Positions 28,281 to 55,974 of a stretch of 64,000 bases of DNA are shown here, in pieces. The notes beneath the pieces were generated by a model. That model did no database searches and was not told where the DNA came from. It saw only the letters and a program-made list of their open reading frames with translations. Each line of letters begins with the position of its first letter. Position 1 is the first letter of the stretch. This stretch comes from Apostichopus japonicus (lineage: Eukaryota > Echinodermata > Holothuroidea > Aspidochirotida > Stichopodidae): NCBI RefSeq assembly GCF_037975245.1, contig NC_092579.1, positions 5,145,001-5,209,000 of the forward strand, given 5' to 3'. The translations under genes were made by a program, and so were the position numbers.

Positions 28281-28359
28281 TAAACCAGAATGCAAAAATG
28301 CATTGTGGTTTCAATAATTTAACATGAGCAGTTTTCTTCATGAATCAGATTATCTGACG

Positions 28360-31250: not shown

Positions 31251-31342
31251 TTGAACTCCCTGAAACTTCCACTTTTGAATAATTGTGCGAACAATGCTTT
31301 CAGAATTTGACGTAAATTACCTTTCACCAATACCAACAACAA

Positions 31343-32072: not shown

Positions 32073-32290
32073 CAACCCCAAACCAGTTCTATATAAGGGG
32101 AACCTACATACCAAATATGAAATGTACCACAGTTATCCTTCTGAAGTTTACAAACAAATGTTTACAGCGTTTACAAACGTTTACAAACAAATGTCACATA
32201 CACACACATAATACACACGCCATCACCATCGCTTAGATTCCTTCTGCCTTCGGCAAGGTCAAATAGATTTAACCTGTTTCCATGATACTC
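32073..32290. repeat. End of an AGGTCA-family element
   Basis: ACACACACATAATACACAC followed by GCCATCACCATCGC and CCTTCGGCAAGGTCA is the recurring border of this repeat family; compare 29,115-29,160. Confidence 0.5.
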
Positions 32291-32524
32291 CTTGATTTAT
32301 TTACACCTCTGGCGAGCTAACTTGACTTTAATATCTTAACAAAATTGACAGTTTGACAATACATCCTACACTACTTAAATTGATTCAAGTCACCCCCCCC
32401 CCCCGGATACTTGAAAAGCTGCACATGGGACTATGTAAGGATACACAGACTTTACATAATGAAACACAATAATGTCTGGAAATTTATTACAAGCAGCAGC
32501 AATGATCTTTTCATTGTTACCTAC

Positions 32525-35005
32525 CTGCCAAAGTTGATCCCTGTGATATGTCTAGAGTTTCACGTTCTCCAAGAAGGGTTTCTTCCTCCGCAACAGAAGC
32601 GGAGTAAGCCTGCAAATAAACAAAATAAGAAAGATATGTTATATGGTTTACTGACACATTAAAAATAGAACCTCAGCTTTCATGTCTGTCACCTGTCAAG
32701 TTACACCAATTCAGTCTTTAGTTGATAAAAGCAACTGATTTAGTATAGGTGAATGTACTCATTACTCACTTCACACTACTTGTTATCAAATGTAGCATGA
32801 CTTTGAACATTTGTTTTTAACTCATTGAACTATTTCTGTAAAGCTCAAGATTATGTTGTTACTTGTAACACCTTTAACAGTGGAACGTTTGATCATAAAT
32901 TCAACACAGTAATGGTCTCATCACAATATTTTGCTAACTTTACACACACACACTTCTTTTGCTACTGATGGTATACTGGCTACAGATACACACTGTTCTA
33001 TATTCATAATTCACTTACTATTTACTTAATCATAGTACTTACCAATTGTTGCTGATTCAAGGCTTCCCTAGTCTGCTTCAGGACCTCTTGTAAAGCCATG
33101 GATTCTTTGGCATATTCCAGTTGAGACTTCACAAGTTCATCTTTTGTAGCCCTTAGACTTGATTTAGCCTCTTCGTGCTCCTGTCATGTAAACAACACAG
33201 TGAATGAAACAAGAAGGATGAACCTCCCACTGGTTACTTGCCACAAATTAAAGTTTATACCAACATTGGAGTAGCATATGTCTGAAGGGAACATTATTCA
33301 AGTTGACAAATTTCTTCACACTTAGTTTTAGGCAGGCTGAAATGATTACCTTTTGACTTTTACTTGAGGGTGTGACGATATTGCAAAATTACTACCTTGC
33401 TCAGAGAAAATCACAAGTTTAATTTAGTGCTGAAAATTGTGACCTAACTTTCAAAAGGAAAGTTCCAGGAATGGTGGAACTACTGTTCTAGAAGAAGGAA
33501 AGTAGGCCTATCACATTGAAGGATAGACGTTCAGTTATATCAATTAGATTAATTAATTACATGTTTCAATGTCTTCAGCTTGTTTTCAGTTGTATCCAAT
33601 CTATCTCTGAAGTGTTGTCTTTCTTCCTCTGTTGTCTTTAGTCTTCCAGTCAGCTGTTGTCTTTCCTCCTCTGTTGTCTTCAATGTATCTTTGAATTGTT
33701 GTCTTTCCTCCTCTGTTGTCTTTAGTCTTCTAGTCAGCTGTTGTCTTTCGTCCTCTGTTGTCTTAAGTCTTCCAGTCAGCTGTTGTCTTTCCTCCTCTGT
33801 TGTCTTCAATGTGTCTTTGAATTGTTGTCTTTCCTCCTCTGTTGTCTTTAGTCTTCCAGTCAGCTGTTGTCTTTCCTCCTCTGTTGTCTTTAGTCTTCCA
33901 GTGAGTTGCTGTCTTTCTTCCTCTGTTGCCTTCAATGTGTCTTTGAATTGTTGTCTTTCCTCCTCTGTTGTCTTAAGTCTTCCAGTCAGCTGTTGTCTTT
34001 CCTCCTCTGTTGTCTTCAATGTATCTTTGAATTGTTGTCTTTCCTTCTCTGTTGTCTTCAATGTATCTTTGAATTGTCATGAATACATCCATATATTAAA
34101 TTACATATATCCATATATTAAATTTCAAAAGGAAAGGAAATAACAAAATTTTACCAATCTTGTCTGCACTTATCTCAAATGAAACCTTTGATTGAGTATA
34201 TCCCATAATTTACAAGACTTATGCAAGTCTTCCACCCATGAGACTTAGTTATGTTAATAAACATAGTTCAATATATCTTAATAATTTATGCAGTAAAAAC
34301 TTCCAGGAAAATATTGTGACAAACTTGCACCAAATTTTGGTCCAACATTAGCATGTTATATGAGGTGACCATGCAATCTTTCACTTTCTTTGGTGTTGAT
34401 ATTGGCCCTGCTTCTGAGCAATTGAACAAAGTCAAGCCCCTTCAATGATCCTCCAACATATATAGGATAAGTTACAGACTTAGGCAAATATTTGACTGTA
34501 ATGCAAGCCCTTGACATTGAATGAAATGTTTTCTTGCCTACTTATTTATCAGATTATACTATTCAAATTGTATTAATGGAGGGTCCTTCTCCTAACAACT
34601 ATGGGTTAATTAACTTAAGTGAATATAATGGTATATTCCCTCAAATTGCAGTTATTTATTTTGTGGGCAACACATTTGTATGTTTTGCGATTCATAACAT
34701 ATTTAACTTGTTAAGCTATCTGATATAAACATACCTCGAGCTTGTTGGTAGACAGCCAATACTGCCACTACTTTACTCAGACCTTTGTCAGAGCATGCTG
34801 TCATTAAATGGTGGATGTCATCAAAAGAAACCTTCCCTGCCTCTCTGAGATGGTGGACAAGAGATGAAAAGGGTGCATCACTCTTAATAATGTCCTTTGA
34901 TTCCTTAGCTGGAACCTTAAGATAGTCAAGTAGCTTCTGACAGTCATATTTGTCAATCATTGACTCTGAGTTCATCATGAGGTTACCAAAAGTTAGGATG
35001 GCACT
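32525..35005 (-). CDS. DED-like death-fold plus coiled-coil protein (3' end not found)
   Basis: The minus-strand exons are 35,005-34,735, 34,066-33,561, 33,180-33,043 and 32,609-32,525. All have GT/AG borders and matching phases (G|AT joining exons 1 and 2, then phase 0). Exon 1 (ATG at 34,978 or an upstream acceptor at 35,006) encodes a six-helix death-fold-like segment: DCQKLLDYLKVPAKE, FSSLVHHLREAGKVSFDDI, KVVAVLAVYQQAR. Its closest pattern is a death effector domain. Exon 2 is eleven 14-residue repeats of the type KTTEEERQQLTGRL or KTTEEERQQFKDTL (two heptads each), predicting a long coiled coil. Exon 3 continues the coil (DELVKSQLEYAKESMALQ). Later exons were not found. It lies head to head with the ZU5-UPA gene. 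A role as oligomerising death-fold adaptor is inference. Confidence 0.75.
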
Positions 35006-36860
35006 CTATATCAAAAGGACAACGAACAGAAAATCAAATAAATATACTGGTGGTAGCAGACTATAAAATAGATTGAGGCATTGAAACAGCAACACATTCA
35101 AAAGGAGGGATTTAAATTAATATGAAAGTGTGAATAATGTGGTTGTGATTTACTTTAATTACAGTATTATTTATATTCTGATAAAATAAAAGTATTAAAA
35201 GTGAACAATTGGTTTGATTGATTTTTAAGACTATACATACCACATTCTTCTATACATGAAGCTGTATCAGGCATATTATTGTTGATTGAATCTTGATGCC
35301 ACCACCTTATAATTATAGTTTAATGGGCTTAACAAGTTATTCAACAAATTTAACCAAAAGATACTACCTTGCAACCCATGTTTGTGTGGGAATGTGATCA
35401 TGGACATAGAACTACTTAAAGTGTCTTCTATTCTGGGCAATGTAGGTGGTCAAAAACACAGCTAAAAGTTACATGTGCTGCAGCTCAAATGCTTGAAGAA
35501 TCAAAGTCCATATATATGCACTGTGAGTCTTTTCAAGATTGGTGGATACACTAAATCGTATAGTGCAGCTACTGCACTACGAGCTACTCACAGCTTCATG
35601 ACAAAGAATTCATGTGAAACATTTAATTATTGAGACTATGTGCAGTTATCAACTATAATGCTAAACCAAGTTTCCTGGGTCACTTAACTTGGTTATTTAG
35701 TAGTATATGGTGTGGACAAATGACATGTATAAAAAAGCCTCTTACTGTACAGGAAGACCATTATTCTTACACTGGTTGACATGTGGTAATGCTTTCTCGT
35801 GCATGGGTAGCAATGATCAGGGAGTTCCATAACAACTCCCTGCAATGATCATGTTAAATCCATGTGCATATCAATTGCATACATTACACTGCGTGCTTGG
35901 TGACAGCTAATGAGTGGGGATCTTCACTGCAGTTAATTAGTGTATTGGGTATTTAGAAAATTAAGCAGGATATTGTGTATCATTACTTACACAAAGTGAT
36001 GTCTATAATCGTTACTGTCACAAACTTACCAGAATTGACTGCAGTAATATATACATTACTTTCTTAGTTTTCAAACAAAGAAATCAACATAATTTTCAAA
36101 ACAGTTAATATTTGCCTCATTTTTCCTGCTTATTCCCCATATGACCTACATTATGAGTGTAGTACAGCTAAATTGTACCTAATGAGCATTGTCAGGAATT
36201 AATTCAAAATCTGTTTCTTATTGTTACTTATAAGGACTACATTACACTGTGCATTCTTCATAATGGAAATCATAGGCCATCAGTGAAATGAACCATTTGA
36301 AGAGAACCGACAAGAAGACTCTCAACTGATTCGATACAATTTATTCTCCTCAGAAGTACTGAAGATGATTTCAATGGCTTTGCAAATTTTGCAGCCTTTA
36401 CTATGTTGACAGTGTGAAAATAGTACCACAAGGCTAAGGTCACATTTTCCCCTTCTTTTTCTGCTTTTTTACTAATTTGGACCAAAATAAACCACCCCTA
36501 CATCCCAAAATAGAAGCAACCTTGTGTCATACCATTTTATCAAGACTTAAATACTGTGATCAAATCAAGGTATCATCATTTGCTATACATGGATGCACTA
36601 ACTAGTGCAAAACTAATCACTATGGCCTAAAATAAGATAAAACATATTGCCCCAAATTTTTCTTGAATTTTATCTCATTACAAGGAAAATTGCACCTGTT
36701 GTGTACTTAACAATAGTTTGCATTGATTTTTGTCAAATTTGAATATTTTAGCAGACTTTGACAGCCAATATTAATGACAAAGGAACTACACTTTTTTAGT
36801 CTGAGCTGTTACACTATGGACCATTCATCTTGCATCAATTTGCAAAGTTTTGACCTAGAA
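35006..36860. other. Intergenic stretch between two head-to-head death-fold genes
   Basis: No exon was recognised with confidence. Both 5' ends (minus-strand DED/coiled-coil gene and plus-strand ZU5-UPA gene) must lie between here and 40.8 kb, so promoters are expected but none is identifiable by motif. Confidence 0.35.
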
Positions 36861-36865
36861 TAGAA

Positions 36866-37690
36866 ATCATTGCCTAAAAAATAGCACTTATATTTATTTT
36901 ATCTTTTCCAGCACTTAAGTGCAACAAGATTGTAATGGCCTAAATTTTTCATAAAATATTGTGCTTACTTTTCCTTCTTAACAAACAAGTTATAGTTGTG
37001 TTCTTAATAAACTTCCGCATCCACTAATACCAAGTTAGCAGCTCGTAAGATCAGAAAATAAGAAGAAATATTTTCCAAATTTTGTGTGCTGCTCTAATAT
37101 TGGAAAGTGCTACAAGCTTCCAATGGCCAAAATTTTTCATAACAATTTGCTCTTACTTTTCCTCCATTTTGATCTCCCTCTGAACAAACAAGTAATAGAT
37201 GTGTTTTTAATGAAATTCTGCATTCACTAATACCAAATTTGTAGAAATTAGCAGCTCGTAAGCTCAGAAAATAAGAAGAAATATTTTCCAAAGTTTGTGT
37301 GTTGCTTTAATATTGGAAAGTGCTACAAGCTTCCAATGGCCTAAATTTTTCATAAAAATTTGCCCCTACTTTTCCACCATTTTGATCTCCCTCTGAACAA
37401 ACAAGTAATAGTTGTGTTCTTAATAAAATTCCGCATTCACTGATACCAAATTTGTAGAAATTAGCAGCTTGTAAGCTCAGAAAATAAGAAGAAATATTTT
37501 CCAAATTTTGTGTGTTGCTCTAATATTGGAAAGTGCAACAAGCATCCAATGGCCTAAACTTTTCATAAAAGTTTGCCCTTACTTTTCCACCATTTTGATC
37601 TCCCTCTGAACAAACAAGTAATAGTTGTGTTCTTTATAAAATTCCGCATTCACTAGAAACAATATTGTCTACATTTGAAGCTATGAAGAC
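36866..37690. repeat. 213-bp tandem repeat, about four copies
   Basis: Units begin near 36,866, 37,055, 37,268 and 37,481. Shared blocks include ATATTGGAAAGTGCTACAAG, CATTTTGATCTCCCTCTGAA and AGAAATATTTTCC. The first copy is the most diverged and shorter. Repeated minus-strand ORFs are products of the repeat. Confidence 0.9.
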
Positions 37691-38029
37691 TGAGAAAATA
37701 AGGAAAACCAATTTTACTTTTACATTGACAGAACAAATCACTTCCATGACAACCTTCCCAAAACCAACATATCCCAAGGAAAACAAGAGCCCAAGGGCAC
37801 TGTGGTTCCTTGCTTGGGGTATATGACAATACACATAATATTATCAAGCAAGATTGGGCTCAAATAGTCCAAGTAATTGTGGTCCTACATGTTCCCATAA
37901 AGTAACCAACACTATAGCCAACACTTTTGTGATCACAAAATGTGATCGGATTTTGGATCAAAAGGCACTTTTGAGATCTAAATATGGCGTCGAAAAAGGT
38001 AAGAAATATAAGAGACCTACAAGCGTGTC

Positions 38030-40290
38030 AACAGATATGATAACATTGGTGACCTCAGATGACATGACCTTTAAGTTTCAAAATGTTCCACCACCCCGTT
38101 CACAACTTGTCCCAAAATATCAACCATGTCACACCTTGGCATTGAGATTTAATTGCATTAAATTAAAAAAAATAACTTTGAACTTGTATACATAACTTCA
38201 CACACAAAGGTCACCCGAAGGTCAACCAATTGACATTTTTGATCGGTGAGACCTAAATATCTGAGCATGACTGTAAAAATTCGAACATTTTTTCTTTGCC
38301 CATTTTCTCCCCCCAAAATACTACTTTTTTAACATTAGCTGACCTTTGGTGACGTTGGACCACATGACCGTTAAGTTTGAAAATATTCCCCTATACCATT
38401 TGCAACTTGTCCAAAAAAATAAACCTTGTCACACCTTGGCACTGGGAGTTATTGCATTAAATGTGTGAAAATTAACTTTGACCTCATATAACTTCGCACA
38501 CGAAGGTCACATGGGGGTCAACCCATTGACATTTATGATCAGAAGGTACCTTTAACATCTGAAAATAGCATCGAAACTGTAAAAATCCACAAAACACGAA
38601 AAGATCACCAGAGGTCAAATTGAGGTCAAGGGTCACCCAGATGCGGGTCGACAATTGGATTACATTGAAGCAACTCCCAACCCTAACGGACAATTTGTTC
38701 TCAAGTTATCGCAAAAATACTAGTTTTTTATCATTAATTGACCTTTGGTGACCTTGTATCACATGACCGTTAAGTTTGAAAATATTCCCCTATACCATTT
38801 GCAACTACTCCAAAAATATCAACCTTGTCACAACTTGGAACTGGGAGTTATTGCATTAAATGTGTGAAAATTAACTTTGACCTCATATAACTTCGCACAC
38901 GAAGGTCACATGGGGGTCAACCTATTGACATTTATGATCAGAAGGTACCTTTGACATCTGAAAATAGCATCGAAACTGTAAAAATCCACAAAACACGAAA
39001 AGGTCACCAGAGGTCAAATTGAGGTCACGGGTCACCCAGATGCGGGTCGACAATTGGATTACATTGAAGCAACTCCCAACCCTAACGGACAATTTGTTCT
39101 CAAGTTACCGCAAAAATACTAGTTTTTTATCATTAATTGACCTTTGGTGACCTCGGATCACATGACCCTTATGTTTGAAAATATTCCCCTATACCATTTG
39201 CAACTTGTCTCAAAATATCAACTGTGTAACACCTTGGCACTGGGAGTTATTACACTAAATGTCTGAAAATTAACTTTGACCTCATATAACTTAACATACA
39301 AAGGTCACCTTGGGTCAACTTATTGACATTTTTGATTGATGAGACCTAAATTAGAGCATCAAACTATACAAATTCAAACTTTTTTTCTTTGCCCATTTTC
39401 TGCCCCCAAAATACTAGTTTTTTAACATTAATTGACCTTTGGTGACCTCGGATCATATGACCGTTAAGTTTGAAAATATTCCCCTATACCATTTGCAACT
39501 TGTCCAAAAATATAAACCATGTCACACCTTGGAACTGGGAGTTGTTGCATTAAATGTCTGAAAATTAACTTTGACCTCGTATACTGTAACTTCGCACACG
39601 AAGGTCACACGGGTGTCAACCAATTGACATTTTTGATCGGAAGGTACCTTTGATATCCAAATCTAGCATCAAAACCAAACAATTCCTTCTTTGCTCGTTT
39701 CCTCCCAAAATAAGCACATTTTTTCTAATGTGACCTTTGACCTTTTGACCTTGGTTTCAGATGTAGTTTAATCTCCTGATTCCAAAAAACAAAACGACAA
39801 GTCTGTACAACCATCCTAACTCCGACCGAAAAACTTTGACCCCATATAACTTCGCACATAAAGGTCACACAGGGTCAACCCATTGACATTTATGATCAGA
39901 AGGTACCTTTGACATCTGAAAATAGCATCAAAACTGTAAAAATCCCCCAAAACACGTCAAGGTCACCAGAGGTCAAATTGAGGTCAAGGGTCACCCAGAT
40001 GCGGGTCGACAATTGGATAACATTGAAGCAACTCCCAACCCTAACGGACATTTCGTTCTCAAGTTATCGCAAAAATACTAGTTTTTTATCATTAATTGAC
40101 CTTTGGTGACCTTGGATCACATGACCGTTTAGTTTGAAAATGCTCCCCTAACCAGTTCACAACTTGTCCCAAAATATCAATCTTGTCACACATTGGCACT
40201 GGGAGTTATTGCAGTTTTAATATTTTCGGTTTTTGGACCATAACTGACCTTTGGTGACCTTTGTGGGCACCAGAAACAATAGGGCACACC
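38030..40290. repeat. ~400-bp tandem array with nuclear-receptor-type direct repeats
   Basis: Long units (about 38,470-38,870, 38,873-39,275, and again from 39,840) share CATATAACTTCGCACA, AGCATCGAAACTGTAAAAAT, AGATGCGGGTCGACAATTGG and AAATATTCCCCTATACCATT. A shorter variant lacking the middle lies at 38,170-38,470 and 39,290-39,700. Every unit carries several AGGTCA/TGACCT half-sites in DR1, DR4 and DR5 spacing (see findings). The array ends in CA repeats at 40,378-40,400. Confidence 0.85.
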
Positions 40291-40620
40291 TTCTCCATAT
40301 GGCGGATCTATAGTCCAAGTTTGGCCTCAATCCAACATTCCGTTATTGAGATAGAGCGTACCCAAGCAAGTGTCACAGACACACACACACACACATACAT
40401 ACATACATGTTTGTGTTTCATTCCAACCGAGGACCCTATTGTATTTTCCTTTGTTCAAATCCACGTACCCTAACCTTAACAATACCCCATACTATAGAAT
40501 TCTTCCGAGGACGTGGTGATTCTTTAGAAATCACAACCGAGGACCTGAAATTCTTTTGTTCAAGTCCTCGGTCGGATAGAAAAACAAACGCACCCACACA
40601 CACACACACACAAACTTGAC
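40291..40620. repeat. CA-rich border and inverted GAGGAC segment
   Basis: CA microsatellites at 40,378-40,406 and 40,592-40,612 flank a segment with CCGAGGACC and GTCCTCGGTCGGAT facing each other. This looks like the end module of the upstream array. Confidence 0.5.
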
Positions 40621-40868: not shown

Positions 40869-41192
40869 CTGATTACGGCAGATTAATGGTCAACGTTGCC
40901 CAAGATCTTACTCTAGACAGCACTCTGAAATTAGCAACTCTGTTCCGTCTACCACCAGCAGAAACTGATATGCTACGCCGGGTTTCCCTGATAGAGACAC
41001 CAGGAATCACTCTGATTAACTTCATGAAGACAAGAAACATCATCAATATGTATGATGTCACTAACCTACAGAAGGGTTTGGTTTATATTCAGCTAACCCG
41101 AACAAATGAATATCACTTAGCTCCATATCAGTCTAAAGTTGACCCCTTTCAGTTTGAGGAAAACCAATTACCGCAACTGCTTGACTGGCCTG
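40869..41192 (+). other. Module 1 death-fold (DED-like) exon
   Basis: It encodes ADYGRLMVNVAQDLTL, LATLFRLPPAETDML, and LINFMKTRNIINMYDV. The LFRLPPAE helix pattern, a following L-x-F/L-M helix with basic residue, and the terminal helix pair match the exons at 45,994 and 55,119. It ends GACTGGCCTG before GTAAGA. Confidence 0.75.
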
Positions 41193-44100
41193 GTAAGAAT
41201 GAATAAAATGATGTAATCAGAATAGATGAAACCAAAATACTACAGTACAATACAAACTCTAGAAATGTGTGTGAGTCGTGTTAATGTTCTGCTTTCAGGC
41301 AATTTGTTATTTTAAACTATTAATTATCACTGTGTATGTATGGTGAAAGTAATTACAAGGCGGATATTTTGACTAAGTATTTGTTGCCATTTGGTTAATT
41401 TCTTCATAGTAAAAGATTGAAAATAGAACAATGCTAAACAAATTAGGTCCCAAGGATTAGCCAATATTTCAAGGATCCATTTAAGCTGTCTGGTCACTCT
41501 CAGACATGATGCTAGATTCTTTTGATACTCCTGTTGTCAAATTCTCTAACAACATAAAACTTGTGTTACATATCTATTACATTTTATATTATGATTACTT
41601 CAATAATACCTCTTTCATAAATCAGTTGCAAGGCTTTTGTATTTTTGAAGAACTTTAGATTAGCAGGGAATGATTAAGTTTATCCATAGTACTTATAGGA
41701 GACAAAAGTCTAAACAAAATGATAAAATTATCCAGTATCACATCGAAAAATGCTACGTTAAATGGGCAAATTAAACACTTAATTATTCTCTGATTAGGAA
41801 TTAATGTAGCTCAGTATGGCAGATTTGGTTTTTAAACATAAAAGCTTCATTTAATGTTGTTTGTGTTTCCATTATTCTATTTTCAGTTGACAATGTCAAA
41901 TTTGACCCTGATAATGAATCAACTCCATCACAAGGTTCTGATGAAAGAGAGGAAGATCATGACCATAGTAAGGAAAGTTTGATGGAGAGAGAAGAGAGAG
42001 AAGTACCAAAACAAAGAAAAGATTCACAAATACTTGAAATGAGGCACTATCATTCATACATTGAACACAGGATCACGTATGAAGGTGGAACTATTACCAT
42101 CATGGGGGTACATCTGACTATTCCTGAAGATGCTTTATCCTCTGATCGTGTAATTGCTGTTAAAGTGATCTATGATCCCACCATACACCTCCCTGGCCCC
42201 TGGCAGTGCTCGTAGGGGCAGAATGACACCTCTGATAAAACTAGAGCCAGAAGGGCTCACCCTCGACAAGCCAGCCCAGCTGACTATTCCTCACTCGGCT
42301 ATTATCCCTGAGCCAGATCGACATGATGTTATAATCTTCACTGGTCTGAAAGACAAAGAAAGTTTAAAAGAAGGTAAAGATGGTAACCAATAAACACTTT
42401 AAAATGCAATTGAATAATGTACCAGGAGAAGTACAATGAGTTATATGCTGAGAATCAGTTCTGTTGAATTTAATATATATCTTATCTAATAGGGTCTTGA
42501 TATATACTTTTTTAGGTTTACTCAATACTATACTTTATATAATATTACTTATTATAGGTGAAATAACTTGGACTGAAGAGAAATCTATTGATTGGAAGCT
42601 AGACCCAGAGAAGATCAGTCTTGATATAACCATCTTGAGCTACGTCTTTGCTAATTTAGTCGACCAAGAAACAGAACAGAAGCATATATTCCGTATTGTT
42701 CCATTTATTGATGGGATACTTGATGCCAATGATGATGTCTTAATAACTGTTTGTTTCTGTAAGGACAGTGATGAAGAGTACAAGGTGAGGATAATCTCTT
42801 GTTACCATGGTGATATATGTAGTAGCTTAGAGGTCAGTTCTGGTTTATATTATGATTTGTAAGTCGAGTACTGGCAATGTTACTTTATTTGTTAAGTGGT
42901 TATCATGCTTCACTGGCAAATTATGAAGTGATTTTGTTAAAGGTGCATTTGTGTGACATAATTTTGTTGATTCATCATAACACATCAAAAAGAAAAATCT
43001 GAAATTTGAAATGAAAATATTTAAACTTGACGTTGACATAAAACATGTGTCTGTCAAAAGTGTTTGTGCTTAAATGAAACTGAGAGTATCCCCATAGTCA
43101 TAGAGGAAGAATGCTGATAGTCTTATAGAGGGCTGATGATGGTATTTTACTAACATTATATTTTATTTCTTCGGTCAAAATGTCATTTTCTTACAAAATA
43201 TGTGGTTCACCTCAAAAATATTCAGATGGCCCAAATTTTTATTGTGGCTCAAAGTGTGCACAACAAGGATTAAGAGGGTTGGGGGCTCTGAAGAAAGAAG
43301 CAACATTGGTAATGTGAGGAAATAATGGAAACAAAGATGATGTTACTTGCTATAGCAGTATTGATCTCTCTGTACAGAGTGAAGGCACAACAAATTGTAT
43401 AATCAACTTTCTGCTTGTTTCTAGCAATTTAAATCTTCATGTCCTTATGTTTTAGTTGCTGTTAGAGGACCACCATCCCAAACTGTGTCTAGGAAACTAT
43501 ACAACATCTCAAATTACCCGGACATTGAGTGACGGCAGAGACCATGTTTCTTACATTGATCTGATCATGTCATCACCCAGTGGTGGTTACCATCTAACGG
43601 GGGAAGAATCAACAAAAGTTTGTAATTGCCAATGCTATTGAAGTTTTTCTTTTAACATTACAAGACTTGTAGTTAAGGATTGGTTACTTAAAGTGGATCA
43701 AATTGTGTAGCAGTTAGAGTGTCGCCCTACAACTATGCGGTTTCTGGTTCAAAATCCCAGCAGGAACCACAATATAGGCAACCTTCTGCTGTGCAGTGTT
43801 GCTAAGCAGGATCTTGTGCGGGTTGGTATTCCTGGTTTGTGAATAAGGAAGTGAAGTTTGGTCCTATGTTCTTTTGTTCGGTATTGCGAATAGCTTCATT
43901 CACCGTGGCTTTACTTTTGGTGTCTATAATTCACCTCCGTTTGTATTGGAGGCAGTGTTCAGTTGTATTGTGGCACTCTCTCAGTTCTTGGATTGGGATG
44001 TTGATTAAATGGATATCCTGAGAGCAGGAATGATTGAGACAATTACATGTCTGCCTAGAAAATCTCTGAACATTCATCAAACAGAATGATTGTAATAAGC

Positions 44101-47100
44101 CGGTGTTTATCCACAATGACACGAATACCCATGGCTTGAATATGTTTCTTTATGGTTCCTACCAATTGGAACAATCTTAACCTAAATAATGTCATGTAGT
44201 TCTTATTACAATAGGAAAGTATAACCTTCACCAGCTGCCCATGAAATGTGAGGATTTGTACATGACAACATGTCTTGGCTCCTTACCAGCTTTTTGTATA
44301 TCTTATATGTCGCACCTTTTCTTTAAATACTTAACAAGCATTCTCATCCTAAGTACATTGATCTTTAATATCTTTTAACCATTAGCATGTAGACATTGAT
44401 TACCTCTGTGCTGCCAGTAGAGTCTCTCGTCAGTTCAGACTTACAAGGGACAAAGATGGAGACACTGGCATGGTTGATGTGAAATTAAAAGTATTTCAAA
44501 ATGAAATGAACCAGACAGCCCTTATCCTCCAATCAAAGGTGAGTAATGTCTGTTGATTATCTTCCAGCTCTCATATGTCTCTTCATTACATCACATTAAG
44601 CAGCATCTTCTCCCATCTGCTAAGTAATGTCCTATCTGTTGGAAGTCTTGCAGCTGTTTGCAGGCTGATTGAATAATGTTAGTGCTGTGGCTGAATTATA
44701 GTTATTTGTTGGCATATTCTCTCATGGATGCTTTTCTTCGTAATATGCATGGTGGATGATAATTTAATTTAATTTAATTACAGCAGTGTTTTATTACTGT
44801 ATTCTTATTTTTCAGTCACTCCAGTGAACCTGGTATTCTTATGTTTCTTATTTTCATCCTGTTTTCCAACTTTTTCCGACTCTTTCGTGTTGTTTCGTAA
44901 ATAAGGAGTGCAGTAACTTGAAAGGCAAATAATTGCTGAAAAAGTGTACATATGACCTGTGTGTTACCACATACACAGGTCAACAGTTATGGGAAACTTA
45001 GGTACTAATGAATATTACATAAATAATAGGTATGCTGTCGTCAGCATTCCTTTTCCTTTTGGGATTTCACACATTTATAATGTGTTGTTCCATGTCTGTT
45101 ACAGCCCTATTTTCTACATTACGTTCCTACTTGAAACCCTAATCATTCACAGGGGTGTGATAGATAGCCTGCATAATTGTATGTTAAATATTCTTACATT
45201 GAAAGTTTTCATTAGTCATATAATTTTTGTTTTTGGGTTTTCCTTCAGGTGAAAGACATTCTCTTATCCCCCGAAAGCCAGAAAATTCTGCACCCAGGTG
45301 AGTTTTTATGTTAAAGTGGAACAAATGGGTGGACTTAGCTAGTTTTAGAAGTCCACCCTGACCTGTATCTAAGTGCAGTTTGAAGAAGAAAAATGAATGC
45401 TCATTATTCGTAGACACACCCCAGGTAAATGTGTATTAGTGGAGATGAAAAAATAAGCACACGCAGAGCACATGGACCCAGGTGAGTGTCTAAGTAAAGG
45501 TGAAGAGGTAATAGCATTTGGGTTTAGCAGTAGACACACCTAAGTGTAATACTTACATCAACTTATTTTATTGGGAAATATTTCATCAACATAATCATTT
45601 TTGATGGAAAGAAATTTAATCATGCTGCTGAACCCTCCAAAAAAAGTCCTATTTGCATGCTTTCATTTTTAGTTAGTATGCTCACTTCCTACTTTGTAGC
45701 TCAAAGAAACCTTGAAGGTGAAGCTGTATACATGAAAAGAATTATGCACAAGACAAGGACTTAAAGTTGAAAGTTGCATGCAAGTTATGGACAGTATACT
45801 TAACAATAGTTTATAACGTGAGGTTGCATACCAGCATTCTCCATGCAGGTTGCATGCTTCATGTGGGCCAGTTGTGTACTTGTGCATGCTAACTGTGAAC
45901 ATTGTTTAAAGTTCAAACCTGCCAATCAATCAGCATGTGCTTCAGTTGCTCGTATTTCTACATGTGATATCTAGTCTTTGCTATATATTTTAGAATTTCA
46001 AGTGGATGTTATGTCCACACTTTCAGGCTTACACAAATATGAAAAGTTGAAAGGAGACATTGCCAAGCTTCTGGATAAACAACATTGGGCAAAGCTAGGC
46101 ATGCTGTTTGGGCTCAGGCCAGCAGAAAATGAAACAATTCAGGAAGCAGCAGAATCTGGAAAGATGCTGATGAAAATTTTGGATGAAAGAGAACTCATCA
46201 TGCCAGACAGAATGATCGGAATGTACGAAGGATTGAAAGCTATTCACTTTGATAAGGTGGCAAGACTGGTGCTGGAGTACATCGATACATCACAGGAGAA
46301 GAATGGAAAGGAAAAAAAAGAGGAAAAAGATGTTAACAAAATGGTTTGTGTTTTGTAAAAACTTGTCAAGACTATGAAACTTTAAGCTTGAATCCAACAA
46401 TGGTTACTTTGCATAACATCAGAATCTTAGAATGGTTTAGTCCTGTATTTTCTGATATGAAATGTATCATTTTTGCTGTCATGCAAGTCACAAAACAGAA
46501 AATTAATTATTACTCCATTACTAAAAAGTCTTCCTATTACTCGTTGTAAAAGAAACAGGGCATTTAACTGATTATTTCTGCTTACATAAAGTTACGTTTG
46601 TAGAGATCAAGTGTACAGCAAGTCTGTGTAGAATATTCACTGAAGCCAAATCAAATGCAGTAATTAGTTTTATATCATTATGAAAGTATGACCAAGTTGT
46701 GAATTTGATAAACAATTTGTAATATTTCAACATTGTTTCAGGTAAAACTTCCAGAGAAACAGGAAGTATTCTCAAAAAGGGAATCAAAATCGTCAGTAAA
46801 TTACACAATTTTGATAGAAGAGGGTTACAAGAGACTGGATGTCCAAAGAGCCTTGAAATTGTCTAATGGAAAACTGGACTTGGGAAGACGGATATTGCTA
46901 CTAGCAAAGGAAGATCATGGTAAAGATACCCTATGTATTCAGCTACATGGGTATTTCTTTTAATATTTCTACCTGATTTACCTCAATGTTGAATCACACT
47001 CTAGGACCACATTTCAAGCCCTTGCTGTTTCAGTGTTTATGGAAGAAAAAGTATTTTTTATTTACTTTAGGAAAATTACTCACAAAATAGCTAGATCATA

Positions 47101-50100
47101 TGAATATGATCTAGATACCTGAAATAAAACTAATTCTTGTTACTTTCAACGAAATATTCTCTTCAAGATCTCTTTTCATCAATCAGGTCAATTATTTCAT
47201 GTCTAATGTTCACTGTCAAAAATTAAAATTATTGTGATTCTTAATTATTTTGTTTCTACAAGTAGAAGTGTTAAAGAGACTATTTTCATTAAATGTGTTG
47301 ATGCATTGAAGTGGCATTGAAGTGGCAAAATCACTTTCCTTTATATATTACTTTTCTCCTCCAGAGAGGCTTCTTTTTTTCCCAGGATCCAATCTTTATA
47401 AGGAGCAGTACTTTGATCAGCATGGAGGAGAGATGTTTATCGCAGGTGTTATTCTCCTTGTACCAGCTGGGGCATTACACACTGGAAGGATTGTTAGTCT
47501 GTGGGTTTCTACGGAACCTGCCATTAATGGACCTTTCGCAAAGAAGAGTCTAAGATTGACTCCTTTTGTGAAATTTGGTCCAGAAAGCCTTACCTTTCAC
47601 AAGCCTGTCACCTTGATTATTCCACACTGTGCTTTTAATCAAGCTGACCAGACGGGTCTTGATGTTTACTCTGGTGTATTACAAACAGGTGTGTTTCTGT
47701 TTCTTTTGCGTTGTGTTTATTAGTCCATTGATCATTATATTTAGTTACTTAAATTTGTTGTATCAACAGAGGTATGTATATGAGTAAGTGTGTTTGTATG
47801 TCACCCCTAATGTACTGTTTATGCTTGCTTCACTGTATGGCTGACCACTTGTACAACTGCTTGCAGATATAACAAACTCCTACTTTTGGAAAATGCCGTA
47901 CTGTATCAACACTATTAGATTCCTGCATAACTGCAAAAGTAAAGCTGGGATGAAAGTCACACTTGATATGTGAAACCACATTAGTACAAGAATGCTATAT
48001 TGGCAATAAAATCACTAAGCCCTCTGGGTGTCTAGTTCTGTGTAATGTAAAAATGATTTTCTCAAGAGGGAGGTATTGTCCCAACAGATTATGTTTGATC
48101 CTTGTTTCAGACGACAGGAATCTATGCAATGGTGATGGCATGTTTGTGTGACACTTGCTTGTATAAACAGGCAAGTGGCAAATTTCATAGTGGATTAACT
48201 TCATACTTGGTATGTGGATATGTATTATGGAGTACAAGAACCCTATTCTATTCTGTGAATATGTAAACATGATATCTCAAAAATTTCATCTTTCTTGAAC
48301 TTCATACTTAGTACGTAGATCTATCTTGGTGAGTGTATGAACCCTAGTCAAAGTCACATGAGGTCAACAGGTGTCAAAATCTGTAAACCTTGTAAAAGTG
48401 ACACTCCTATATTAAAGCTACAATTAATTTGGGAGTTCTCTGCTGCTATGATTTTCTTTTCTGGCTTTCACTTAATTCATAGACAAATTTAAGACAAATT
48501 TAGACAAATTTCACTCATTTGCTCTACATTAGTCTTATAGGTATGTGGAATTTTGAGCACATTTTATGGCACGGAATCACAAAGCTAACAGGTTTTTCAA
48601 GGTACCCTTCTCTTCTCAGTAGTACATTGGCCTGATGACCTCAATCATTTGTTCCACAAAACAAATTTGATCTCAATCATTTGTTTATTTGGGATAAATA
48701 AACAAGATCATTAAAAGAGAAAAAAGCACTTCAAGCTATGGCAAGCTGTAGTTAGCAACACAATTTATCTGGCAACCTTGCAATTGAAAATAAAGATATT
48801 GTACTGTTTTGATGTTCTTTGTATGCAGTGTTGCATTTTCTAACACAAGACTGTCCCTTTAAAATCATCTTTGGTATATTTTAGGATTGGTGTTCTACCT
48901 TTCAACATGTTATAAATACCTATCTAGCAAAACTTTTTTTAAATCTTCAGATAAAATTATCAAATGGAGCCAAGAAAGGAAACACCTCAGCTGCTCTATG
49001 AATAATCAGCACTTTGCAGTTGAAGCAGAAAAACCATGTCTCATTGGTCTTCATGTCCCTTTCATACCCAAGATTTTGAAGCGTGTCTGCGTCTTACCGA
49101 TTGTAAACAGAGTTTCTGAATTGGGGAATCAATTGACAATTCATCTTTGGTTTCATAATGATGACTCACTGGAACGTAAAGTAAGTAGTAGATTTTGTCA
49201 GCTCGAGTGGTATTGCAATTTATCTCACGGAGTCCAGTTATCTGCCTTAATTCAAACTAAATTGATTTCAGAGTAACATAATAATAACAATAATAATGAT
49301 AATCAGCAGTTATTTTTACGACGCTTAAGCAACCACAAAATGGGGAGAAACCACAAGGGCTTATGGATTACACCTTACCCTTCGGATGGCTTCCAACTCA
49401 ATATTTTTACTCAAATTTGGAATCTTTTCAATTTAGAAAGTCATTTCAGATAAGAAAACTGTAGATTGCTCTTGGATGAAAAGTCCACCTTACTATAACC
49501 TGGCCGTTTATCTTATTCGGAAACCTCCAGATTGCTAAGCCTCCAGATTGCTTCAAATGCCATCGCCTTTACCCACTCGGCCACAGCACCAGTGGAATGA
49601 TACAGTTTCAACCTGATGCCCTACAGACACAAACCTCTCTGAAAGTCAAATTGTGATCATATAGCAGGCGCGTATCCAGGATTTTCTAACCCGGGGGGCG
49701 CGAATTACTATCTAAGCGGAGCGCCACCATCGGTTGGGGCGGAGCGTACAAGAAAATTTCTGGTTTTGATACCCCCCACATCACCGGAAATGGCACTTCT
49801 CGGGCTTGAAAATGAGCAACCAGATGTACACTTTTGCCTGAGTACCAAGTATTTCCCAATAGTTTTTTTCCATCCATAACATTTTTGAAGATTGTCACCA
49901 GTCACACATCATGTTCGACCTCATTGCATGTCCTGTGGATCATTGCTTTTGTAAGTGATTCTACGTCACGGCCCACAATATCCGAAAGCCCCACTTTTCA
50001 TGGTTTTAAGCCCATTATTTGTTCAGAATTTGAAAATTCACATTTCTCGTGAATAAAATCACTTCAAAACATACCCATAATGTTGCACAAAATTCAATCT

Positions 50101-53100
50101 ATGGACAACCAGTATAGAAAAACCCCCTTCAACCACTAACAGACAGGTCAAAATTGCACGAGTAGAGGGATGTATGATGAAGAATGTTTGTCAGGAAATT
50201 TTCGAAAATTCAGACACAGTTAATTTATTGGTGTAGAAATATTGCAACCTCTTATAACGGCTATTATAAAACTTGGTTGAAGGAAATGAAAAATAGCAGA
50301 TATTTCCAATATCAGATAACCGAACACTACACACATAGGCGTAGGAGGCGGGGGCTGCAGCCCCCCCCCCCAACCAGATTTTTTCCCCTGAAAATTCGGG
50401 CAATGTGCTGAGAATTTTTCGGGCACCTATACTGAAAGAAAAATTAATAGCAATGGTGTAGCTTAAGGAAATGAATAGTTTAAAAATTATCTCCTTGGTA
50501 ATTCAAATAAAGTTCTAAGCTTGGCCGACTAATTCGCCATTACCACTGTAAAAGAGAGTTTTGACATAATTGGACCTGTATGCTTTTTCTCCATAAGACA
50601 TTTCGTTGTTCACAATAGCATCCGGCGGTATACTGTGCAACTTTCACGGACCGTACGGTACACGATGCGAAGTAATGACCGATGCTTGCTTATACGATAT
50701 TGACATTAACATGTTAAATGCGCGCGAAAAATTTTGGTTATATTTTTCGTGCAAGTCGTTACAGCCCCCAAGTCCAATTGGGCTCCTACTACACACATAG
50801 ACAGTTTTGAGGCTGTTCACCCTGGAACATGCATTTTCATGCTCACTGATATGATGTGATATCTGCTCTTTGCTTTGCCAAGGGAGGGGCGAAGCCTGTA
50901 GGCAAACTATCTAAGCGTAGCGCCACCATGAGTTGGCGCGAAGCGTGCAAGAAAATTTTGGCCGAAAATGCCTCCCAGATCGTTGGAAATGACATTTCCC
51001 AGGCCTTGTAAGTTGCATCTAAGCATTGCCTTTTTTGAAATTACTAGCGATATCATAGAAAAAATTTGCTCGGGTGGGGGGGGGGGTGGTCGCCCCTTCC
51101 CGAAATGCGTCATGTTCCCCGACGACTCGGTTGAGTTCAAGACCAGCCACAGTTGGTTCCATAGCACAATTGTACAATTGTTTAAGGCGTCCATACACAC
51201 ACACGCGTTATGATAGACCATATATAGTATATATATAGATACATTAGTGAAAGAGGAAAAATGGAAACGTCAAAAATGGAGTTGTCGGTGTAAGGGGTAG
51301 GGTGAGGCGCACGTCCCCTCCGTAATCCTCGATCTGTCACTGGCAACCCTGTGTATATTATAGGGGTCAACGCTGTAATTATGACTGTTCCTCTTTCTCT
51401 TCCCGAGGTCTTGGCGTTTATCTTCTACTCCCTCCTGTTCTCCTTTTTCTCTCTTTCTTCTTTTCTTTTCCCTTCCTTCCTCTCCTCCTTTTCTTTTTTT
51501 CCCCCTCCTTTTCCCTTTTTTCTTCTCTTTTTTCTCTCCTCTTTTCCTTACCCGGGGGGCGCGCCCACAACGCCCCCCCCTGGATACGCACCTGTATAGT
51601 CAAGCAAGGGGTCCAGTGAGATTAGCCCGTTCAGGACATTGATGGTTGAAAATAAACTTTGTAGTGGATGAAACACACTGACCAGATGTCCTACGAAAAA
51701 ATATGCATGTTCAATTTTGTTTTCGTCTGTGGTCATTGACAACTGACAACAACTGTTGTAACAGCCACATTTGTGAATACGTACACCTTTTCCAATATTA
51801 GAGTGCATAGTTTATATTTCAGAACATAGGCCATGAGATTATGAATGGTCTTTGATAATGCATCTGGCAGACAATCAATGTGTAATATATATAATAGTAA
51901 TAACAACTCCCTGATTTCAGTTTATATTCCCCAGATTACATGGGGATTCAAGTCACAGGCTTGTGTTGTATAACAGAGCTCAGTGTTTGATAACACATTA
52001 GTTGGTCCAGTTAATCACCCAGACAAGATTTGGACAGAAAATCTGTACAGACAGTTAGACCTCATTGCATTCGATGTATGAAATATTTAAAGTAGCTGTT
52101 TGTTTTACCAAATCATGGCCACACCAGTTTTAATGAGAGGGTCATACTAGGGAGCTGTTATTGCTTCCTGATCATACATGGGACAATGCAATGGGTGCAT
52201 GCATTGATGGTAATGTTTAAATAAACATTAATTATAATGTATTATTGTGTCATTTCTATTTTAACAGAGCCTTATCAATGAAGAAATCTATCAGCAAAAG
52301 GGATCCATAATTCATGATCCTGTGTCTGTTCAACTCCATTCTATGACTTCAACTTTACATGTTAGCACTAACTCCAGTACGTCACAGTGTAACCCAAGAA
52401 GAGTGGTTAGTATTGTCTGTCAAATATTCTTATTTATTTTATGTCAACATGTAGAGAAAGCAGGTAGTTCCTGTTCCACGGGTAATTTGCATTTGTTGGG
52501 AGAATAGTTGTATGCATCTGTTGAGTGGTATGTAATAATGCTAGCATATGTTATTATATTGTAAACTGTTGTTTTGTTTATATCATACATTAAAGGTATG
52601 CTGTATTGGCCCAAATATAGTATATAAGTAAGTAAAATACAGTAATAAGTAGGGTCACCTTTGGACAAAATTCTTAAACTATATTTGTTATCACCCTGGA
52701 GGACATTTACCTCACTGGGACATTCAAACATCTTGTGTGTTCCTTTAGAATGTCTGAGAACAATTTGGAGAGTAAAGACTTCCAGGAGGGTACTTTATGA
52801 CACTTCTAGCAATTATAGCATGCTATAATTTGGGTCCTATACAGACTACTTTTTATTACAAATCAATGTTTCATGTTATATTGAAACTGTTTCTTTCTCA
52901 ATTTGTCATGATACTCAATGAGAGTATCATATAGTACAGTGAAAGTTACCTCGCAGGTTTACATTTATCCATCTGGGTGAAGAGGGGAATTTCAGATCAA
53001 GTGCCTTGCCCAAGGTCACAGATTAAAAATGTGCAGGAATGGAACCTGTAATCCTTAGAATGTCAGCACATTAACTTTAACCACTTCAATGTCAACTTAA

Positions 53101-55420
53101 ATGCCTTAAAGTCTAAAGTTTTATAATATAATAATTAAAGACCTTCTGATTATTCTCCTTCAAAGGATGTTGCAATGGAAACCCTATGGTTAAAGAACAG
53201 ACACAAGATAGAATTCCATCTTCAGTATAAAGGGATCAAAGATACTGTCAATCTGGAAATAGAAGCAAGATATGGGATGTTAAGGTGGAATCTTTTCCAG
53301 CTTAGTATTCAGTTGCAGGTAACTTTATTTTGAATTAATGTTACAGAAAGAAATATTTGAATATGAGGAGAATGTCTGGTTCAGTTAATACTTGGTACTG
53401 TGTTGTAACTACATAGTATGTATATGTTCTTTGCATCAACAATGTTACCTCATTAATATTTATGAGTGGAAAATTGTCCAAAACAGTTTGTAAATACGAT
53501 ATCTTAACAAGCACAAGTTGAATCAATGTTATATTTGGGAGATAGATGCCCCATGATGAGTAGATGTGCCCCATTGTTCTTGGTTCTCATCTCATGAATA
53601 TTAATGAGTGGGCAGGGCTTAACGTGAACTTTGGTTCATACTGGTATGGTCATGCTGGTGCACATAGAGCACATTTTCATGATGTCTCCAACTTCATGTC
53701 ATTAATATTCATCAAATCGCAAGAAATGGCTTTTAACACACGACAAGAACGAAATGTTTCATGATTTCCATACTTGACATATTAGGTTTGTCACACTACA
53801 TTATTCATACAATCAACCGTGTTGTTTTTTGGTTGCATATCATGAATTTTATTCAGTGAACATTAAATTCTTAATCAGATATCTCTGAAGTAGTATGTCT
53901 AATTAGCTTTACACATGTACTTGGATAATATGATGTAAGTATATAGATACATGCTTATGAGATCATAAAATTTGACCTCATTAAAATCCATGTCTTTTCT
54001 GTTTTTATAGTATGTCTCAACATGATAACACATTCCTTTAAATGTTGCAGCATTAGTCACTCATTTGGCTGGGCATAAGTTCATGAATATTAACATGTAT
54101 GGCTTACCACACTATGTATTTCTTTAGACATCAGAACCACTGAACGTTTTCCTTTCTGTTCTATTGAAATCTCTACTCTGTCGGTCTTAGTTGATTAACT
54201 GATCTTCATTATAAAAGTTTGAATGAATATTTTAAAATGCCAGAAAAAACTTATAACCAGCTGTCTTATAGAAAATATACTGTATAAACAGTAAGTCCTA
54301 ATTAGCATATCTTAAAAGTATTAGTGAAACTGCTTCTGGAGACATACTCTTCATTGATAGAGGTGAAATATGCACAAACTAATTTTCTAGGGCAATCATA
54401 AAGCTTTCCTCTGTTTCCTCTTCACAGATTGAAAAGTTACGACACATTGACCAAATCACATCTCCATTCCAGCTCATTCTACCTGAATGTGAGTAATTAA
54501 TTACTTTAGCATGTTAATGCAGCTGAAGATGTTTCATTACAATGTTGCACTCAATACCAGATTTGTAAACTAGAACAGTTTCTTCAATATCAAGTTTTGA
54601 AAATAGCTGATAGTTACATATATTCCACCAGTTGAAATGACAACTACAGCCTGGACTCCTCTTTGCAAAGTAGGATTAGGTGTACACATCTCATATGTAA
54701 GGAATTGTCGGCAGTATGTAAAATGTTGATGTATGAATAGTAAGATTACATGTACACATCTCATATCAAAGGATTGCACCTAACTTGTGTATAAGTATTG
54801 ATGTGTGCTTAGGTGTTAAACATAAGTATTGATACCAAAGCAACACACTTAGACTGAGTATTGATACTGTATTCAAGTCTCATTGCAGTGGAAAACAACA
54901 ATTACTGAAATTCAGCCACCTGCTTTAAATATGCATTCTCAGAGTTAAACCAGATTTCATTTGTAGTCTCATTGAAAGCTTTTACGGTTTATTTTGCCCC
55001 TGAGTGTAAGAAACACATTTATGTTGTCTCACATTGCTGGTATTTTTTTGTTTAAAACAGGATTGGTTTAATTCACTTTATGTAGAGTTGCAATTTACTT
55101 TTTTTTTCAACCTTACAGCCATCATCAAATCTTTTGATCAGCTAAAACAGAACGTATCAGAACATCTTGATGTAGACCAATCTACCCTGCTGGCATATAT
55201 TTTCCAACTTCCTGAAGAAGGAATTACTGATATCAAAAAGCACAAAACACCAGGAACTCTTTTGTTAGAGAAGCTGACCAAAAGTTCACTAATATCTCCC
55301 ACAAATGTCACAAAATTCGAAAATGCCTTAACAGAACAAGGAAATGAAGAATGTGGAAAACTTGTCAGAGATTTTAGATGGGAAAATCCTGTAGTTCAAG
55401 CAACATTGTGCAAACAATAA
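40869..55420 (+). CDS. Multi-module DED-like/ZU5/UPA protein, 14 exons (5' incomplete)
   Basis: Exons: 40,869-41,192; 41,887-42,373; 42,558-42,784; 43,456-43,617; 44,386-44,538; 45,249-45,297; 45,994-46,343; 46,742-46,919; 47,365-47,688; 48,951-49,180; 52,268-52,405; 53,166-53,318; 54,428-54,488; 55,119-55,420 (TAA). They give about 1,045 aa with every junction in phase. The order is death-fold, ZU5, UPA; death-fold, UBA-like, ZU5, UPA; death-fold. ZU5-UPA-death-domain supramodules are known from UNC5, PIDD and ankyrins, where they control assembly of signalling complexes. No transmembrane segment or caspase is visible, suggesting a cytosolic PIDD-like scaffold (inference). The first visible exon starts at an acceptor, so an upstream exon is missing. 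Exon 2 needs a frameshift, so either the gene is damaged or the assembly has an error. Confidence 0.8.
41887..42373 (+). other. Module 1 ZU5 exon with a frameshift
   Basis: An acidic linker (about 41,887-42,040) leads into ZU5: YEGGTITIMGVHLTIPEDAL, then in the +1 frame TPLIKLEPEGLTLDKPAQLT and IPHSA. These are the classical GG, IP-x-AL, TP-x-x-P-x-G-L and PH motifs. The first half reads in one frame up to about 42,200, the second half from about 42,190 in the next. 487 nt is one too many for the flanking phases, so a 1-nt insertion or 2-nt loss near GGCCCCTGGCAGTGC is implied. Confidence 0.8.
42558..45297 (+). other. Module 1 UPA domain and tail (four exons)
   Basis: The exons of 227, 162, 153 and 49 nt read FRIVPFIDGILDANDDVLIT, VSYIDLIMSSPSGGYHL, and RQFRLTRDKDG. 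This is the beta-rich UPA pattern: strand pair, D-containing loop, L-x-L strand with a glycine turn, and a final F-x-L strand. The 153-nt exon has an equally sized partner in module 2 (53,166-53,318). Confidence 0.7.
43695..43775 (+). mobile_element. tRNA-like SINE head
   Basis: GTAGCAGTTAGAGTGTCG resembles an A box and GGTTCAAAATCCC a B box with one extra base, about 35 nt apart. It sits in an intron of the ZU5-UPA gene and is degenerate. Confidence 0.35.
45994..46343 (+). other. Module 2 death-fold (DED-like) exon
   Basis: It reads YEKLKGDIAKLLDKQ, WAKLGMLFGLRPAENETI, LMKILDERELIMPDRMI and VARLVLEYI, six predicted amphipathic helices. The L(M)KILDEREL segment is DED-like, whereas WAKLGMLFGL is reminiscent of death domains. 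A lysine/glutamate tail follows (KEKKEEKDVNK). Confidence 0.78.
46742..46919 (+). other. UBA-like exon (module 2 only)
   Basis: It encodes NYTILIEEGYKRLDVQRALK followed by LSNGKLDLGRRILLLAKED. This is a three-helix UBA pattern, with a G-Y/F loop after helix 1, an AL helix 2, and a helix 3 with LL. UBA domains bind ubiquitin. No counterpart was seen in module 1. Confidence 0.55.
47365..47688 (+). other. Module 2 ZU5 exon
   Basis: Intact in frame: HGGEMFIAGVILLVPAGAL, LTPFVKFGPESLTFHKPVT and IIPHCAF carry the diagnostic ZU5 motifs. The exon is 324 nt with phases matching both neighbours. Confidence 0.85.
49510..49592 (-). mobile_element. tRNA-Ser-derived SINE head
   Basis: On the minus strand GTGGCCGAGTGGGTAAAGGC is a near-perfect Ser/Leu-type A box region. 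GATGGCATTTGAAGCAATC follows in the anticodon arm position, and GGAGGTTTCCGAATAAG resembles a decayed B box. The repeat lies in an intron. Confidence 0.55.
49665..51594. mobile_element. Non-autonomous DNA transposon (hAT-like ends) in an intron
   Basis: The left end is CAGGCGCGTATCCAGG; the right end read inward is CAGGTGCGTATCCAGG (15 of 16 identical). Both are followed by G-runs and GGGGGGCGCG. TATAG flanks both sides (49,660-49,664 and 51,595-51,599), a 5-bp direct repeat, shorter than the 8 bp usual for hAT. CTATCTAAGCGNAGCGCCACCAT recurs inside near 49,712 and 50,907, so the element is compound. No transposase remains. Confidence 0.6.
50355..50455. repeat. Segment shared with the MITE at 60.5 kb
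   Basis: AATTCGGGCAATGTGCTGA, TTTTTCGGGCACCTA and TACTGAAAGAAA match 60,754-60,800 with few differences, so two different DNA elements carry the same internal piece. Confidence 0.65.
52940..53100 (-). mobile_element. tRNA-derived SINE with a CCTTGGGCAAGGCACTT tail
   Basis: Read on the minus strand: GTGGTTAAAGTTAATGTGCT (A-box region), GGTTCCATTCC (B box), then GACCTTGGGCAAGGCACTTG and CACCCAGATGGATAAATG. This head-plus-tail order is common in SINEs of marine invertebrates (recognised from memory). It lies in an intron, about 70 bp before the exon at 53,166. Confidence 0.65.
55119..55420 (+). other. Terminal death-fold (DED-like) exon
   Basis: It encodes FDQLKQNVSEHLDVDQSTLL, YIFQLPEEGITDI, LLLEKLTKSSLISPTNV and ECGKLVRDFRWENP, ending QATLCKQ and TAA. 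It is the third copy of the same fold in one gene. ATTAAA at about 55,573 could serve polyadenylation. Confidence 0.75.
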
Positions 55421-55835
55421 TGACTGAAATCATATTGTGGGTTATTGTAGGCAAGTAGATATGAACATATCACCAGTGATGATGTAACACTAACCAGGAA
55501 CTTGTTCACTTGAGAGGGGCAGAGGAAGTCAGTAAGTCTTTCTGTAATCACTGTTAATTACAGTTGGAGCTTATTAAACAGGATTATATGCTTAATTACA
55601 CCTGTATGAGTGACTTATATACAATATGCTTCTCCCCCTCTTACATGGTTATGTATGTAAATACTTTATGTGACTATATGCTCTATTCTTGGCTTTGATA
55701 AGCAAACAATTAAAAGTTACCTATGCATTCATGTCAGCGTGTGTGTGTGTATGCTGTAAGTTTTGGTTTCGATGAGAATCATAATCAATGCAGTCATGAT
55801 GACTTGTGTGCGTATGTGTGGATGTGACACAGATG

Positions 55836-55974
55836 CCGACCGAAAAATTCACTGATTTCTTCACAAAATTAGAAAAAGCCCTGACAGAGAAAGAAAACGA
55901 AGGATGTGCAAGACTTGTCAGAGATTTCAGAAGAAACAAAACTGTACTTCAAGCAACAATGTGTCAGGAATAGA
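55836..55974 (+). pseudogene. Broken duplicate of the terminal death-fold exon
   Basis: The frame reads FTKLEKALTEKENEGCARLV, then RDFRRNKTVLQATMCQE and TAG. It aligns residue for residue with the end of the exon at 55,119 (FENALTEQGNEECGKLV, RDFRWENPVVQATLCKQ). Only the last ~45 codons survive. The upstream side is replaced by AGGTCA-family border sequence (TG repeats at 55,738-55,750 and GTTTCGATGAGAATCA). Confidence 0.8.

Follow-up and report, generated by a model that had tools for sequence, protein, structure and literature searches.

The pairing of ZU5 and UPA domains is known from ankyrins, UNC5, PIDD and CARD8, and death-fold genes are known to have expanded in several animals. The available portions of the relevant reports state that the UPA domain of CARD8 and NLRP1 lowers the concentration required for CARD filaments (PMC7794386), that the death domains of MACC1 form an overlapping pair (PMC11585957), that shuffled death-fold genes have undergone lineage-specific expansion in sponges, lancelets and bivalves (PMC8195603), and that NACHT-Zu5 genes occur in early animals (PMC12909245); the title of one reference gives ankyrin-B the order ZU5-ZU5-UPA-death domain. 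Here we analyse a stretch of 64,000 nucleotides (nt) from the sea cucumber Apostichopus japonicus (C19:5145001-5209000, hereafter the window), in which a reading of the letters by a model, the original prediction, had proposed a gene with an internally doubled DED/ZU5/UPA module. On balance we favour the view that these exons form the 3' portion of a gene from a clustered family, whose intact members would encode DED-coiled coil-DED-ZU5-UPA-DED-UBA-like-ZU5-UPA-DED in one protein, proposed to act as a DED scaffold without self-cleavage.

The family shares with UNC5, PIDD and ankyrin a ZU5 domain and, by prediction, UPA-like exons behind it and a death-fold at the C terminus; it differs from them in its doubled ZU5-UPA-death-fold unit, the DED-like character of its death-folds, the UBA-like insert and the coiled coil. 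The FIIND of CARD8 and NLRP1 likewise places ZU5-UPA beside a death-fold domain, which in those proteins polymerises (PMC7794386, in part), whereas the sea cucumber family has two modules, DED-like rather than CARD domains, and no F-S pair at the aligned cleavage place. Within the MACC1/SH3BP4 group, the ZU5 of MACC1 is accompanied by multiple death domains (PMC11585957, in part). MACC1 differs in having a single ZU5, an SH3 domain and death domains that overlap. To our knowledge, it contains neither a UBA domain nor a coiled coil. Ankyrin-B and MACC1 show that the original prediction oversimplifies in giving known proteins a single supramodule with one death domain behind it. The Death/DED TRADD-N families of Amphimedon, Branchiostoma and Crassostrea resemble the present one in their large species-specific expansions and shuffled death-fold domains, and a DEDD2-like TRADD-N clade has forms fused to a UPA-Zu5 module. 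The parts of that report covered here make no mention of the doubled DED/ZU5-UPA/UBA order (PMC8195603). General Pfam scans of our chains turned up no TRADD-N domain, although no dedicated TRADD-N profile search was made. A search of the open-access literature returned no description of an architecture in which a doubled ZU5-UPA module is joined by four DEDs and a UBA-like insert, and it is this predicted combination that appears to be new.

Exon structure of the window copy

All fourteen predicted exons were recovered at 40869-55420 on the + strand by translation and splice-site inspection, and they encode, in order, DED, ZU5, UPA (four exons), DED, UBA-like, ZU5, UPA (four exons) and DED. 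The first module opens with D1 (40869..41192), a DED-like internal exon of 324 nt that is both entered and left in phase 1, placed by paralog matches. It is followed by the ZU5-1 exon (41887..42373, 487 nt; ZU5 profile and paralog alignment), by UPA-1 exons a (42558..42784, 227 nt), b (43456..43617, 162 nt, donor GTTTGT) and c (44386..44538, 153 nt), by exon d, the linker from UPA-1 to the next DED (45249..45297, 49 nt), and by the DED-like exon D2 (46027..46343, 317 nt, donor GTTTGT), identified through comparison with paralogs. The second part comprises the UBA-like exon (46742..46919, 178 nt; PDB and genome matches), the ZU5-2 exon (47386..47688, 303 nt; ZU5 profile and PDB matches), UPA-2 exons a (U2a; 48951..49180, 230 nt), b (U2b; 52268..52405, 138 nt, with a tblastn match in nine of ten paralogs) and c (53166..53318, 153 nt), a second linker exon d (54428..54488, 61 nt), and the terminal DED-like exon D3, which includes the stop codon (55119..55420). 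Phases are consistent across all of these exons except ZU5-1, which runs into a stop; the fourteen exons were thus placed as proposed, while their supposedly perfect phase fails at a 7-nt duplication that shifts the ZU5-1 frame.

For D2, the CTTTCAG acceptor at 46027, the length of 317 nt and the open frame are shared by 11/11 copies. The 49-nt and 61-nt linker exons are the sole candidates of their type in their own intervals at the thresholds used, at which seven candidates of the short-linker type occur on the whole + strand of the window; linker-exon candidates scoring at least 9.5 number three in the window (one of them inside D1), against a mean of 0.2 in 20 random 64-kb sequences. The UPA-1 linker measures 61 nt, the same as its UPA-2 partner, in eight of the nine paralogs where it was located. 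Behind D3 lies a decayed partial second copy of that exon (55831..55963, +, 75% identical), and a D3-like piece resembling it is also present behind the copy designated paralog E and two other C19 copies.

A clustered gene family

The window gene is one copy of a clustered, lineage-specific animal family of about fifty copies. Searching the genome (672 Mb, 35 contigs) with a ZU5 model gave at least 150 scored exon matches, and the UBA-like exon has 53 matches, 52 of them without a stop. Anchored on the latter, D1, ZU5-1, UBA, ZU5-2 and D3 lie in this order, on one strand and within set distances, in 44/53 loci; a further DED-like exon, D4, lies upstream on the gene's strand in 47/53, and all six exons are found in 41/53. 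These counts drew on 57 of 86 D1 matches, 52 of 54 D4, 54 of 67 D3 and 53 of 53 UBA matches, together with 52 ZU5-1 loci and 48 ZU5-2 entries from 116 ZU5 matches, after weak or distant matches and second pieces of one exon had been dropped. One of the 44 ordered loci, C16:6250662, is doubtful, its D3 match being 21.8 kb off.

Ten paralogs were fetched for closer reading. They were picked for having two close ZU5 exons on the same strand and are therefore not a random sample. Seven hold all 14 exons in order, two hold 13 and one holds 8; in paralog G, one of those with 13, two exons are frameshifted, and at locus J the ZU5-2 exon was not found, the only ZU5 match there being a distant one (28.7%). 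The exons are under selection: the pooled ratio of nonsynonymous to synonymous substitution rates (dN/dS) over 10 copies is 0.41, a value that predates the revision of D2 and took that exon from 5 copies, with a per-exon range of 0.24 to 0.58 and 0.52 for D2 over 10 copies. Locus I was omitted throughout from this set, the window was omitted for ZU5-1, and G was omitted for U2a, U2b and D3 because of stops. Since both modules are present in the diverged locus I, we infer that an internal duplication of the ZU5-UPA-DED unit, exon structure included, preceded the expansion of the family.

Four loci on C15 (23752949, 23884483, 26749077 and 27291649) have no ZU5-2 match and carry a D3 match about 0.4 kb behind the UBA-like exon; they are possibly variants without the second ZU5-UPA. 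Many more ZU5 exons are present in the genome, clustered and mostly on C12, and those that were read (L004, L007 and L008) are about 27-34% identical to the ZU5s of this family.

A predicted intact member

In paralog E (C19:3951325-3974042, - strand), D4, a coiled-coil exon, a second coiled-coil exon, a linker exon and D1 form a chain in phase, and together with the rest of the fourteen exons the whole runs to 18 exons and 1359 codons with one terminal stop, in a frame that lacks the first coding exon. Its domain order is DED-coiled coil-DED-ZU5-UPA-DED-UBA-ZU5-UPA-DED. The acceptor AG of D1 is present in 11/11 copies and its methionine is missing in one, which argues for coding exons upstream of D1; for the same reason, the D1 methionine was rejected as a translation start. 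The coiled-coil exon consists of 14-residue (42-nt) repeats in the window (33561-34076, -) and in paralogs E, D and K, and as the repeat region is much longer in K than in E, the number of repeats seems to vary between paralogs. An intact member would accordingly combine four DED-like domains and a coiled coil in one predicted protein, rather than the three death-fold domains first proposed. Membership in a family, the longer 5' end and the damage to the window copy go beyond the original prediction, the observation of which is partly confirmed and the interpretation partly supported.

Domain identities

The fold of each domain is predicted from sequence, with differing degrees of confidence. 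The identity of ZU5 is certain: the Pfam model matches with E 7.2e-13 in the window (1.7e-10 for a chain with an X at the break) and with E 1.7e-20, in two stretches, in paralog E, while the best PDB matches of the region are ZO-1, UNC5B and ankyrin-2. The ankyrin-2 match spans ZU5 into UPA exon a (E 2.6e-6 for the whole chain, 1.2e-3 for that stretch), and this lends some support to the predicted UPA. Searched alone, UPA gave no Pfam or PDB UPA match, and UPA-1 gave a single PDB match at E 1.1. For the UBA-like exon, all seven PDB matches are UBA domains (CBL, CBL-B and Mud1), at weak E-values of 0.2-1.6 that hint at such a domain. Profile searches have thus borne out the ZU5 of the original prediction and returned no Pfam UPA or UBA match in the chains of either the window or paralog E, one of the results that weigh against the proposed architecture.

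Further such results concern the death-folds. DEDs are marked by a six-helix fold and a charge-triad/RxDL surface. The candidate exons follow both UPAs in phase, and their fold is backed by profile only. A profile built from the four exons matches c-FLIP with E 8e-4 for the whole chain; the stretch of c-FLIP DED2 alone reaches E 0.016, and a profile without D4 has a best match of E 0.24. D2 matches the Pfam DED model at E 0.038 in the spliced window chain, and D4 of paralog E does so at E 3.8e-4, with 21.1 bits against a cut-off of 35.9, although the same stretch matches the CHMP7 winged-helix model at E 0.0017. With D1-D3 of paralog E, Pfam gave no DED match, D1, D2 and D3 taken singly give no PDB matches, and D4 of the window alone finds only unrelated PDB chains. 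Taken with these reservations, the death-fold exons can be regarded as candidate DEDs, with some support from the profile comparisons.

Condition of the window copy

The family member in the window is likely to be a pseudogene or a misassembled allele of a functional family, an explanation compatible with the architecture proposed here. Within ZU5-1, a 7-nt unit that is single in paralogs E, A and D is present twice in tandem (42191..42204, +), and this duplication causes the frameshift and stop; ZU5-1 reads open at the site in 10/10 paralogs. A tiny intron within ZU5-1 was considered as well. Some 95 GT/GC-AG pairs (at least 20 nt) would open the frame and none was judged consistent with the ZU5 alignment, and the paralogs simply lack the duplication; such an intron was therefore rejected. 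Among 52 loci (150 of 192 candidates scored), ZU5-1 is split in two pieces only in the window copy and at C19:3.86 Mb.

The 5' part of the gene is inverted. While the 0.2-0.5 kb adjoining D1 matches paralogs E, K and D in direct orientation, DNA farther upstream in these paralogs (fetched only in part for K) matches the window at 27.2-37.8 kb in the opposite orientation, and in paralog D the match also covers tandem-repeat sequence up to 40.2 kb. The interval containing the block is 26635..40374, with its left breakpoint near a TGTA satellite (26669-27255) and its right breakpoint between 37.8 and 40.4 kb. Between this satellite and the tandem repeats, on the - strand, sit D4 (34735..35005, 271 nt, ATATAG...GTATGT) and, by paralog match, the coiled-coil exon (about 33561..34076), the second coiled-coil exon (33043..33180, 138 nt) and the matched part of the linker exon that precedes D1 (32526..32585). 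No 5' end of the coiled-coil exon could be located in the window. Because the block is inverted, the + strand of the window offers no convincing candidate for an exon upstream of D1.

Against loss of function, the 13 remaining window exons are open, and dN/dS between the window and paralog E is 0.44, so any loss would be recent. The 7-nt duplication, the inverted block and the missing coiled-coil end together make it probable that the window copy is a recent, non-functional pseudogene or an assembly fault.

Three further open frames lie on the + strand of the window, each classified by eye and without a Pfam match at E 0.01: a 344-codon frame running off the window start (3-1037, glycosyltransferase-like), a frame with a stop codon (25857-26474, beta-propeller-like) and one resembling a reverse-transcriptase fragment (31316-31963). 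The DNA at 25876-26635 matches, in the same orientation, a stretch upstream of D4 in paralog E, and a neighbouring gene may therefore belong to the tandem unit.

One gene or two

A less probable arrangement is that of two neighbouring genes that have always been duplicated together, the first, (D4-coiled coil)-D1-ZU5-UPA-D2, ending after D2 and the second comprising UBA-ZU5-UPA-D3. An in-frame stop does lie within the 8 codons behind the D2 donor in the window and in E, C and H; it is absent in the other 6 of the 10 readable copies (A, B, D, F, G and J), yet the donor (GTTTGT or GTTCGT) is conserved in 9/10 paralogs. Several details speak for such a split and against a single gene: the splice score of the D2 donor is only -0.7, and the gap between D2 and UBA contains AATAAA in B, D and H and ATTAAA in C, that is, canonical polyadenylation hexamers in 4/10 copies, while the gap of the window holds only variant ones. 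Possible start exons ahead of UBA in the gap of the window have scores from -10.9 to -0.1; the best of them, only two codons long, is a further point for the split but is present in just 3/10 copies (the window, E and D).

No stop interrupts the frame spliced from UPA-1 exon c, by way of d, D2 and UBA, into ZU5-2 in any of the copies that allowed it to be assembled (9/9). This speaks for one gene rather than two, and D2 and UBA are adjacent in 10/10 loci read. We therefore favour both modules lying in one gene, with a single predicted transcript, and the internal doubling first proposed is supported, given this open junction and the ordered exons in 44/53 loci.

Proposed function

Self-cleavage of the ZU5-UPA modules of the kind known from PIDD and CARD8, by which DED fragments would be set free, is very unlikely: the succession of ZU5 and UPA is indeed the FIIND layout, and cleavage there requires an SF/S motif, HFS in PIDD (PMC3210808, in part), but no F-S pair was seen at the aligned place of UPA exon a in the window and 10 paralogs for module 1 or in the window and 9 paralogs for module 2, the residues being KIS/KIY and HFA/HLA/RLA/HLE at a position set by the ankyrin alignment only.

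It is this absence that leads us to propose a non-cleaving scaffold, and the clustering of CARDs by UPA in CARD8 and NLRP1 offers the analogy for a clustering of DEDs. The product is probably a large scaffold protein that clusters death or immune signalling proteins. As a soluble scaffold without self-cleavage, it would associate with itself through the coiled coil and the two UPA domains; its DEDs might then form short DED stacks and recruit DED partners, perhaps FADD or caspase-8-like proteins, and the UBA-like segment may couple DED assembly to ubiquitin. Multivalent assembly, already suggested in the original prediction, would be a reasonable expectation. More tentatively, the clustered family might consist of some fifty giant four-DED scaffolds, each joining a pair of non-cleaving ZU5-UPA platforms to a coiled coil of variable repeat number and a segment that binds ubiquitin. 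They might then form, within a single animal lineage, a novel class of death-effector hubs that has diversified in the manner of immune or allorecognition genes and unites parts similar to those of the death-inducing signalling complex (DISC) and of inflammasomes in one polypeptide.

The genome holds a large ZU5 expansion, part of which is internally duplicated with its exon structure kept. If intact paralogs make the predicted protein, one polypeptide would carry four DED-like domains and two UPA platforms, and with such a family one could test directly if the nucleation threshold of death-fold assemblies is set by how many death-fold and UPA domains are linked.

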